The notes under the pieces were generated by a model. The model ran no database searches. It was not told the origin of the DNA and was given only the letters and a program-made list of their open reading frames with translations. Source: a virus. From it: a stretch of DNA of 31,937 bases. A program made the position numbers and the translations under genes. Where the stretch lies: IMG/VR virus record IMGVR_UViG_3300048837_000847, positions 1 through 31,937 of that record, one strand, 5' to 3'. Each line of letters begins with the position of its first letter. Position 1 is the first letter of the stretch. Shown here piece by piece: positions 4,549-10,318 of the stretch.

Positions 4549-5298
4549 ATGGTAGTAAAAGGGTGGTACTTTTCGGATGAGTCTCGCAAGCTGCGCTACG
4601 ACGCCGGCCGCGAGATTGCTATAGGCGTCGAGCATACGGTAAAGGGCTACCCCGAGCCGTGCAAACGTGGCCTACACGCCAGCGAGCGTATTCTTGACGC
4701 GCTACAATATGCGCCGGGGCCGATTATCTGGCGCGTCGAGCTGTCCGGGCGAATTAAACGTGGCGACGACAAGGTTGCGGCTACGAGGCGCAAGTACATA
4801 GCTGGCGGCTTAGACATAAGCGACATCTTGCGCAAGTTTGCCAGAAAGCAGGCTTTATCCGTGGCGCATTTGTGGGACATACCGGAGATTGTGCGGCGGT
4901 ATCTTGAGATTGGAGACGAGTTTATAAGGGCCGCCGCCTGGGCCGCCGCCTGGGCCGCCGCTAAGGACGCCGCCAGTGACGCCGCCTGGGCCGCCGCCAG
5001 GGCCGCCGCCTGGGCCGCCGCCAGTGACGCCGCCAGTGACGCCGCCAGGGCCGCCGCCTGGGCCGCCGCCAGTGACGCCGCCTGGGCCGCCGCCTGGGCC
5101 GCCGCCAGGGCCGCCGCCTGGGCCGCCGCCAGTGACGCCGCCTGGGCCGCCGCCAGGGACGCCGCCAGTGACGCCGCCTGGGCCGCCGCCAGGGCCGCCG
5201 CCAGGGCCGCCGCCGGGGCCGCCGCCGGGGACGCCGCATGGGCGGTTGCGCATAAGATGCTTGAGGATATGGTTTTGGCCGCGATCGGAGGCGACTAA
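4549..5298 (+). CDS. DUF7666-like protein with long Ala/Trp tetrapeptide repeat
   Basis: A 249-residue protein. Residues 1-90 match the DUF7666-type phage domain of unknown function: KGWYFSDESRKLRYDAGREI, PEPCKRGLHASERILDALQY, then a short beta segment. Residues about 126-230 are about 26 four-residue units of the form (A/D)-A-A-(W/S/R/G), for example DAAWAAARAAAW, predicted as a long continuous helix with one face of Trp/Arg/Ser, with 11 Trp in the tract. At DNA level this is a 12-bp repeat. It is first in the rightward operon, with GGAAGGGG upstream and a good promoter. Related proteins often carry such Ala-rich tails. The function is unknown; an oligomeric or membrane-associated helix is conjecture. 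Confidence 0.85.
   Translation: MVVKGWYFSDESRKLRYDAGREIAIGVEHTVKGYPEPCKRGLHASERILDALQYAPGPIIWRVELSGRIKRGDDKVAATRRKYIAGGLDISDILRKFARKQALSVAHLWDIPEIVRRYLEIGDEFIRAAAWAAAWAAAKDAASDAAWAAARAAAWAAASDAASDAARAAAWAAASDAAWAAAWAAARAAAWAAASDAAWAAARDAASDAAWAAARAAARAAAGAAAGDAAWAVAHKMLEDMVLAAIGGD
4930..5240. repeat. 12-bp tandem repeat tract
   Basis: About 26 imperfect units of the pattern GCCGCC-NNN-GNC in phase with the Ala-rich tail of the gene at 4549. The tract is open in other frames: the shifted plus frame reads Pro-Pro-Gly collagen-like units and the complement reads Gly-Gly-Pro-Gly units. The tract should be prone to slippage, so its length may vary between genomes or be misassembled. Confidence 0.9.
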
Positions 5299-9502: not shown

Positions 9503-9529
9503 TTGACGGGTATTACAGTATTGTAGTAT
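9503..9529 (+). promoter_or_regulatory. Putative rightward promoter for the tRNA region
   Basis: TTGACG (9503-9508) with TAGTAT (9524-9529) 15 bp away; spacing is short, so the call is tentative. The spacer contains AGTATTGTA, also present at the 10683 promoter and at the late promoter near 28113. Transcription from here would cover the structured region, the tRNAs and the genes from 10151. Confidence 0.4.
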
Positions 9530-9728
9530 GGTACGAGTAGGGCCGGGCCGTATGGCTAAGGCTTAAACGCCGGCGGGCTAACGCAACTTCTTTATCAGTT
9601 GACGCCGGGAAAGACCGGAACGCGCGTTGCGCGTCATGTTATCACGGTAGCCGCTCCACCAATAACGGGCGGGCATTGTAAAGAACTCGGAATATCCGCC
9701 CTGGCTCCGTTGGAGATGGGCGGCACAT
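9530..9728 (+). other. Structured non-coding segment
   Basis: No convincing protein gene. Paired elements include CCGGCG/CGCCGG (9570-9575 with 9603-9608) enclosing CAACT/AGTTG with an 8-base loop, ACGCG/CGCGT near 9620-9634, and three mutually exclusive copies GGGCGG, CCGCCC, GGGCGG near 9667, 9697 and 9718. The middle copy can pair with either neighbour, giving two alternative folds. The function is unknown; it could be a 5' leader of the tRNA transcript. Confidence 0.45.
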
Positions 9729-9807
9729 GGAAGCGATGCCGAGATGACGTCCATCGGCTAGACGGCGCGCCCATACGCGCTAGCGGGTTCGGAGCCCGCC
9801 GCTTCCA
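9729..9807 (+). ncRNA. tRNA-like fold without an anticodon arm
   Basis: A 7-bp perfect acceptor-like stem (GGAAGCG with CGCTTCC) ends in A then ACC. It is preceded by a T-arm-like hairpin (GCGGG-TTCGGAG-CCCGC). A D-arm-like hairpin (GCCG/CGGC) follows the 5' strand after AT, and a 5-bp hairpin with loop CCCATA sits where a variable arm would be. The acceptor resembles serine tRNAs. There is no normal anticodon arm and the T-loop lacks A58. Its 3' strand overlaps the anticodon loop of the permuted tRNA-Trp, so both cannot mature from one transcript. Confidence 0.4.
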
Positions 9808-9877
9808 ACCCTGGAAGTGCAGGTTCAAATCCTGTCGTTCCCGATTGGGGGCGTAGTGTAACGGTTAGCACGCTAGG
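9803..9877 (+). tRNA. Circularly permuted tRNA-Trp (CCA)
   Basis: The 3' part comes first: anticodon loop TTCCAAC (9803-9809; U33, anticodon CCA, A37), stem CCTGG (9810-9814), variable AAGT, T-arm GCAGG-TTCAAAT-CCTGT (9819-9835), acceptor CGTTCCC (9836-9842) and G73. After a 3-nt linker ATT comes the 5' part: acceptor GGGGGCG (9847-9853), TA, D-arm GTGT-AACGGTTA-GCAC (9856-9871), G26 and stem CTAGG (9873-9877). The acceptor closes 7/7 (two G-U) and the anticodon stem 5/5 (one G-U). The 5' half resembles bacterial tRNA-Trp, and G73 plus CCA are Trp identity elements. Flanks CCCG (9795-9798) and CGGG (9878-9881) can pair and stack on the anticodon stem. Maturation would require joining 31 to 32. 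Confidence 0.8.
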
Positions 9878-9977
9878 CGGGGGTCAACCGTAGCCCTGCA
9901 AGTTCAAACGGTACTAGCCAAAGCGTAGTGCACTGCGCGGCGGCTAGCGCGTGGCCCCTGCGAAACGGGGCGTGTTT
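9878..9977 (+). other. Non-coding spacer between the two tRNAs
   Basis: No gene is seen. It contains an ACCGT/ACGGT hairpin near 9887-9912 with GTTCAAAC in its loop region, a GCGC-GGCGGCTA-GCGC hairpin that looks like an isolated D-arm, and GCCCC/GGGGC with an 8-base loop. These may be debris of further tRNAs or processing signals. I cannot assemble a complete tRNA from them in either order. Confidence 0.4.
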
Positions 9978-10084
9978 CGGGGTGTAGACAAGCGGTTAGT
10001 CAACCATGAACGGATGGCACTAGAAGCGAAAGCCGAAGCCATGGCGGGAATGGTCAATGGCGGGTTCGACTCCCGCTGCCCCGG
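9978..10084 (+). tRNA. tRNA with 35-nt insert in the anticodon arm (Pro-like)
   Basis: In normal order: acceptor CGGGGTG/TGCCCCG (7/7 with two G-U), TA, D-arm GAC-AAGCGGTTA-GTC, A26, stem ACCAT (10003-10007), a 35-nt insert (10008-10042), loop GGCGGGA (10043-10049), stem ATGGT, variable CAATG, T-arm GCGGG-TTCGACT-CCCGC, G73. Without the insert it is a textbook 72-nt cloverleaf. C1-G72 and the loop bases CGG-G37 suggest proline (CGG), but position 33 is G instead of the near-universal U. The insert is bracketed by direct CCATG repeats and carries its own ATGGC/GCCAT helix. Either an intron or a decayed gene. Confidence 0.6.
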
Positions 10085-10150
10085 CGATTTGTGCAGCTAT
10101 GCGGGCACCATGCACGCAGGCCAGCACGTTTTTAAAGCAAGGAGGCTAAA

Positions 10151-10318
10151 TTGAAAGACCCCGAAGACAGGTTGACCGCGCGCATCGTCGTGCTGGTGAC
10201 GCCCGAGGAAAAGCGCTCGTATTTTCGCCGCTGCCGCGAGCTTGACAGCACGCCGTCCGATCGCGTGCGGGCGCTGGTCAAGGCAGACCTGGAAGCGATG
10301 ACGCGAGACGATGCCTAG
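10151..10318 (+). CDS. Small ribbon-helix-helix-like protein
   Basis: A 55-residue protein starting with TTG behind AAGGAGG. The pattern LTARIVVLVTPEEKRSYFRR followed by CRELDSTPSDRVRALVKADL fits the MetJ/Arc ribbon-helix-helix fold: one beta strand, then two helices with Ser-x-x-x-Val at the second. It is likely a dimeric DNA-binding regulator and a candidate ligand for the inverted-repeat operators in this genome. It overlaps the nuclease gene by 8 bases and is first after the tRNA region. Confidence 0.68.
   Translation: MKDPEDRLTARIVVLVTPEEKRSYFRRCRELDSTPSDRVRALVKADLEAMTRDDA

Follow-up and report, generated by a model that had tools for sequence, protein, structure and literature searches.

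The window analyzed here is the whole of a 31,937-base IMG/VR virus record. Its locus at 9530-10150 comprises ~600 nt of noncoding DNA with three tRNA-like pieces, 3' of a sigma-70-like promoter match, in the following setting:

Minus strand of the window: terminase, portal, tail and internal virion genes
7-9.5 kb of the window: lysis-type genes
9503..9532, plus strand: sigma-70-like promoter match TTGACG-18-TATGGT (consensus scan), a candidate promoter
Right of 9530-10150: RHH, VRR-NUC, RecT and exonuclease genes
10151..10318, plus strand: small ribbon-helix-helix-like gene (Pfam RHH_9, E=0.002, below the curated cut-off), a synteny marker shared with phage contig L011

The sigma-70 consensus scan gave 2 matches against 0.5 expected from shuffles, and the RHH-like protein shares 47% identity over 43 aa with the L011 protein. 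Neither ARAGORN with default settings nor Rfam called a contiguous tRNA at 9530-10150. A blastn search with the locus returned no match from phages and only short T-arm matches to ordinary tRNAs from plasmids, and the thermodynamic fold of the whole locus is unremarkable against shuffles (z about -1.2). The RecT of the window has no relatives among the genome_contigs, and the scan with its VRR-NUC returned none. No RNA ligase, tRNA endonuclease or integrase was found among the window proteins scanned. The original prediction for this DNA described three abnormal tRNA-like units in a row; the pieces are present, but the first of them was misdescribed. Its parts are:

9728..9807, plus strand: unit 1, tRNA-like element (fold z=-2.6; closing strands and first hairpin found again in other contigs)
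9728-9735/9800-9807, plus strand: closing helix GGAAGCG/CGCTTCC
9738-9758, plus strand: first hairpin GCCGA..TCGGC, in the D position
9764-9780, plus strand: hairpin in the anticodon position
9783-9799, plus strand: T-like arm

Unit 1 had been thought to lack an anticodon arm, but the hairpin at 9764-9780 fills that position. The closing helix and a hairpin GCCG..CGGC are common to unit 1 and six other phage contigs (L006, L011, L105, L106, L111 and L122), with CGCTTTC in place of the CGCTTCC 3' strand in L105 and L122. Local alignment also found GGAAGCGAnGCCG of unit 1 in L011 and in L009, the latter with the 5' part only; these two phages were reached through the neighboring exonuclease gene, and L006 was added by motif search. 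The insert between the first hairpin and the T-like arm differs in each phage in both sequence and length, measuring 23 nt in the window, 78 nt in L011 and more in L105. A unit-1-type element lies ~6 nt before an intact tRNA in L006 and L122, and intact tRNAs stand near it in L011 and L105, so that four of the six contigs have intact-tRNA neighbors. Sequence conservation within the family leaves only weak covariation: two pairs are changed on both sides, and 51 of 500 shuffles were as good. The family had no Rfam match where tested. Judged by its sequence, unit 1 is not a decayed tRNA but a member of a recurring non-tRNA family.

A pattern scan of IMG/VR placed the unit 1 pattern in 24 viral contigs. 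Seventeen of these belong to one P2-like lineage and were set aside because the CGCTTCC partner strand is absent in the sequence shown, as were three matches among the genome_contigs for the same reason. Searching IMG/VR for units 1 and 2 with exact or near patterns returned nothing. In P2-like phages (L099-L104, L107, L108, L110, L113-L117 and L119-L121) the unit 1 pattern stands just upstream of an open reading frame starting MNLNELYRLI, and this match, with no CGCTTCC partner, is perhaps a different leader RNA. A group I permuted intron-exon arrangement was considered since CTAGACGGC resembled P7/P3, but there was no Rfam intron match up to E=10, and the idea was also dropped since unit 1 proved to be a recurring tRNA-like element.

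Unit 2 consists of two fragments, followed by a further partial copy:

9810..9843, plus strand: fragment A, tRNA 3' half CCTGG-AAGT-GCAGG TTCAAAT CCTGT-CGTTCCC-G (from the sequence; pairs with B)
9847..9877, plus strand: fragment B, tRNA 5' half GGGGGCG-TA-GTGT AACGGTTA GCAC-G-CTAGG (from the sequence; pairs with A)
9885..9908, plus strand: degenerate 3' half behind B (18/24 ungapped identity to A)

The order of unit 2 is that of a circularly permuted tRNA, with the 3' half before the 5' half and complementary acceptor and anticodon strands: GGGGGCG pairs with CGTTCCC (7/7) and CTAGG with CCTGG (5/5) across a 3-nt linker. ARAGORN accepts the joined form as tRNA-Trp(CCA), to which G73 and CCA are suited, and the permuted pattern is unique in 1.03 Mb of phage DNA in an explicit-rule scan. 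In red and green algae and in archaea, the halves of permuted tRNA genes are joined by the splicing endonuclease at a bulge-helix-bulge motif. Unit 2 resembles these genes in its 3'-half-first order, its short linker and its breakpoint at the anticodon loop. Unlike them, it has no bulge-helix-bulge or like processing motif by inspection and no such enzyme was seen, and its junction is of probable tandem origin.

The permuted arrangement had been proposed in the original prediction, and the pairing, linker and uniqueness of unit 2 agree with it; other features do not. The loop TTCCAAC overlaps, in its TTCCA part, the conserved 3' strand CGCTTCCA of unit 1, and this strand pairs 7/7 with fragment B too. 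The degenerate 3' half behind B aligns locally with A at p=0.003-0.006 against shuffles and looks like a decayed tandem copy. Intact neighboring tRNAs in other arrays cross-pair similarly (6/7 and 4/5 in L194, 6/7 and 5/5 in L098), and no second junction with 7/7 and 5/5 pairs and a 3-nt linker occurs in 1.84 Mb of phage DNA. A partial literature search turned up no description of permuted tRNAs in phages, an absence of limited weight. Because the loop is shared, a decayed copy follows B and intact arrays cross-pair, the permuted-gene reading is weakened. We consider it rather unlikely that unit 2 functions as a circularly permuted tRNA-Trp(CCA), or that it is a permuted tRNA mimic whose arms are ordered as in YrlA. 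Most likely, two tRNA fragments belonging to one array simply abut here.

Rfam gave weak matches that lean towards permutation, one to permuted tmRNA at 21.1 bits (cut-off 47, with only the T arm and acceptor matching) and one to YrlA (RF02553) at 16.7 bits against a gathering cut-off of 69. Both scores are far under their cut-offs, and the Y RNA and permuted tmRNA identities were rejected; aragorn -m found no tmRNA at the locus. YrlA and unit 2 share the order T arm, acceptor hairpin, D arm. In YrlA the stem closing the tRNA-like module carries a Ro-binding motif, which the locus does not have there: GNCGAAN0-1G occurs once, at 10032 inside unit 3, as often as expected by chance, and not at unit 2. 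No Rsr gene was found among the window proteins scanned.

Between units 2 and 3 lies a hairpin that recurs in other phages:

9949..9971, plus strand: M1 hairpin GCGTGGCCCC-TGCGAAA-CGGGGC, directly before unit 3

The M1 motif (GCGTGNCCCCNGCGANACGGGG) occurs in 70 IMG/VR stretches (L126-L193, L106 and L111 among them). A tRNA or tRNA-like unit follows 5-9 nt behind the search pattern in 10 of the 70, and in the window unit 3 follows at 7 nt. Five of the ten units behind M1 are not called by ARAGORN. Elsewhere, by inspection, M1 often precedes open reading frames, at about 40-50 nt from the start codon. Rfam gave no match where tested (L106, L111 and the window), and M1 looks like an undescribed phage RNA motif. 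Behind M1 in L131, L135, L146, L171 and L176 are tRNA-like units with an acceptor helix and T arm and no ARAGORN call.

Unit 3 is a complete tRNA body:

9978..10084, plus strand: unit 3, tRNA body with extended anticodon arm (strict core scans, ARAGORN -i, constrained fold)
9978-9984/10077-10083, plus strand: acceptor CGGGGTG/TGCCCCG, 7/7 (G-U counted)
9987-10001, plus strand: D arm, stem GAC/GTC
10003-10007/10050-10054, plus strand: anticodon-position stem ACCAT/ATGGT, 5/5
10008-10049, plus strand: 42-nt insert where a tRNA has a 7-nt loop
10060-10076, plus strand: T arm GCGGG-TTCGACT-CCCGC
10084, plus strand: discriminator G

Unit 3 has no mismatch in its acceptor, D or T stem. It has a 7-bp acceptor, a D arm with GG and a T arm with TTCRA, a set from which unit 1 departs in its D-position hairpin, where the GG of a D loop is missing. 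A canonical tRNA has a five-pair anticodon stem, a 7-nt loop and U33; unit 3 has a 42-nt loop instead. ARAGORN accepts unit 3 at 9978-10085 when introns are allowed (-i), and its pattern is unique in 1.03 Mb of phage DNA under strict rules. Since the patterns of units 2 and 3 are found nowhere else in that DNA and ARAGORN accepts their joined or intron forms, this anatomy goes beyond chance. When 1.84 Mb was scanned with strict tRNA-core rules, clearly oversized anticodon regions appeared only in unit 3 and at L111 6014, with D-to-T-arm distances of 58 and 50 nt respectively, and none in shuffles. The insert can extend the arm by pairing ATGGC/GCCAT inside ACCAT/ATGGT and bears a marginal likeness to L106 (p about 0.02-0.03). 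The constrained tRNA-like fold has -34.9 kcal/mol against an MFE of -39.0, the free optimum being ~4 kcal/mol better.

The original prediction placed the interruptions of units 2 and 3 at a common site, 31/32, and offered as one option that the anticodon loop would stay hidden from anticodon nucleases until maturation. In both units complementary stem strands do flank the interruption correctly, as split tRNA genes joined by splicing would require. However, the insert flanks of unit 3 cannot be joined into a loop with U33, which makes an intron unattractive there, and the insert can fold into the arm. The loop of unit 2 is shared with unit 1, the common site is thus not established, and the proteins scanned include no splicing or ligase gene that would support maturation. 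With joining at 31/32 and splicing unsupported, evasion by a hidden loop lacks its key step, and we judge it highly improbable that these are split genes whose precursor escapes anticodon nucleases.

Relatives differ at the syntenic place. L011 has intact tRNA-Gly and tRNA-Thr genes and a unit-1-type element before the homologous RHH gene, G005 (L092 3480-4780) has a tyrosine integrase and a tRNA 3' half that is probably an attP, and G001 has nothing. Since G005 has this pair, fragment A might in principle be an attP as well; this was rejected, with no integrase found in the window proteins and no host identified. Normal tRNAs in relatives had been named in advance as evidence against the original prediction, and the comparison came out divided, for L011 does have intact tRNAs but with a unit-1-type element adjoining them, and G001 is empty. 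The frequent change of content fits both a cargo site and decay.

Decay of a tRNA array, in which captured or duplicated tRNA genes were broken by recombination and insertion and no unit works, is the main rival explanation. It would account for the degenerate 3' half of fragment B and for the differences among relatives, and we regard it as possible, though on balance doubtful. It does not readily explain why the stems of unit 3 (acceptor, D and T) are free of mismatches, why unit 1 recurs with its closing helix conserved in six further phage contigs, or why the spacing of M1 is kept. The expectation of a common cause rather than three accidents is supported in that other phage contigs also carry unit-1-type elements and anticodon regions that are oversized or missing. 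Such elements in other uncultivated phages look like a recurring phage feature, not a one-off accident.

By their predicted folds, at least two kinds of tRNA-shaped RNA at the locus have the anticodon part exchanged for other hairpins. We give an even chance to a reading in which the locus is a modular phage array whose RNAs have a tRNA body but do not decode, and serve either as scaffolded small RNAs or as tRNA mimics. The array would be transcribed rightwards from about 9540, yielding RNAs built on a tRNA body (acceptor helix, T arm, and either a D arm or a D-position hairpin) in which other hairpins replace the anticodon arm. The body may let host RNase P, RNase Z and CCA enzyme trim and stabilize the RNA, while the missing anticodon would keep it out of decoding. 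The RNA could then be a scaffold for the inserted hairpin, or a mimic occupying tRNA-binding enzymes, defense nucleases among them; the decoy idea of the original prediction survives in this form by analogy. The recurrence of unit 1, the spacing of M1, the absence of oversized cores from shuffles and the intact stems of unit 3 count in favor of the array. Counting against it are the weak covariation, the better free optimum of unit 3, a locus fold no better than shuffles, the missing GG in unit 1 and the single close analogue of unit 3. A bolder version, a widespread but unannotated phage class of hairpin-headed, anticodon-less tRNA mimics trimmed by host enzymes and blocking tRNA-targeting defense, with unit 2 as a circularly permuted copy, seems improbable to us.

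The tRNA arrays of phages are commonly regarded as an aid to decoding or as a source of substitutes for tRNAs that the host cuts. Non-decoding tRNA-body units, if they recur in several phages, would reveal a third use and would give a defined set of RNAs for trial against tRNA-targeting defenses. They may also be common and overlooked, since tRNA finders miss them and the unit 1 family and M1 have no Rfam match where tested. The tRNA cluster of phage T4 includes the stable RNAs C and D, which are not tRNAs and have no known function; by description only, they are like the units here as non-tRNA RNAs in a phage tRNA array. Engineered tRNA scaffolds for recombinant RNA, in which a foreign hairpin replaces the anticodon arm on a tRNA body, have the same build, whereas the units of the locus are natural and carry a putative cargo. 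The nearest published idea to a tRNA-mimic role appears to be that for Salmonella YrlA, whose tRNA-like domain is not cut by an anticodon nuclease and was proposed as its possible competitive inhibitor (PMC7790460). Phage tRNAs that escape tRNA-targeting defenses either carry changes in the anticodon region or make up for depleted tRNAs (PMC10264068, PMC11555353). The published evasion by anticodon-loop mutations concerns tRNAs that still decode (PMC10264068), whereas the tRNA-body units of the locus cannot.

Two minor observations concern contigs of the unit 1 family. A 60-nt module, GGGCAACGGTGCCCC..GCGGTGGRATACCA..GGCGG.TACTGCC..GACCGACAAAGT, is present near letter-for-letter in L011 (3593-3653) and L106 (810-751, minus strand). 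The gene at 4549-5298 of the window has a long run of near-identical repeats encoding an AAWAAASDAA-type peptide, and a similar repeat is found in L006 (1-245).
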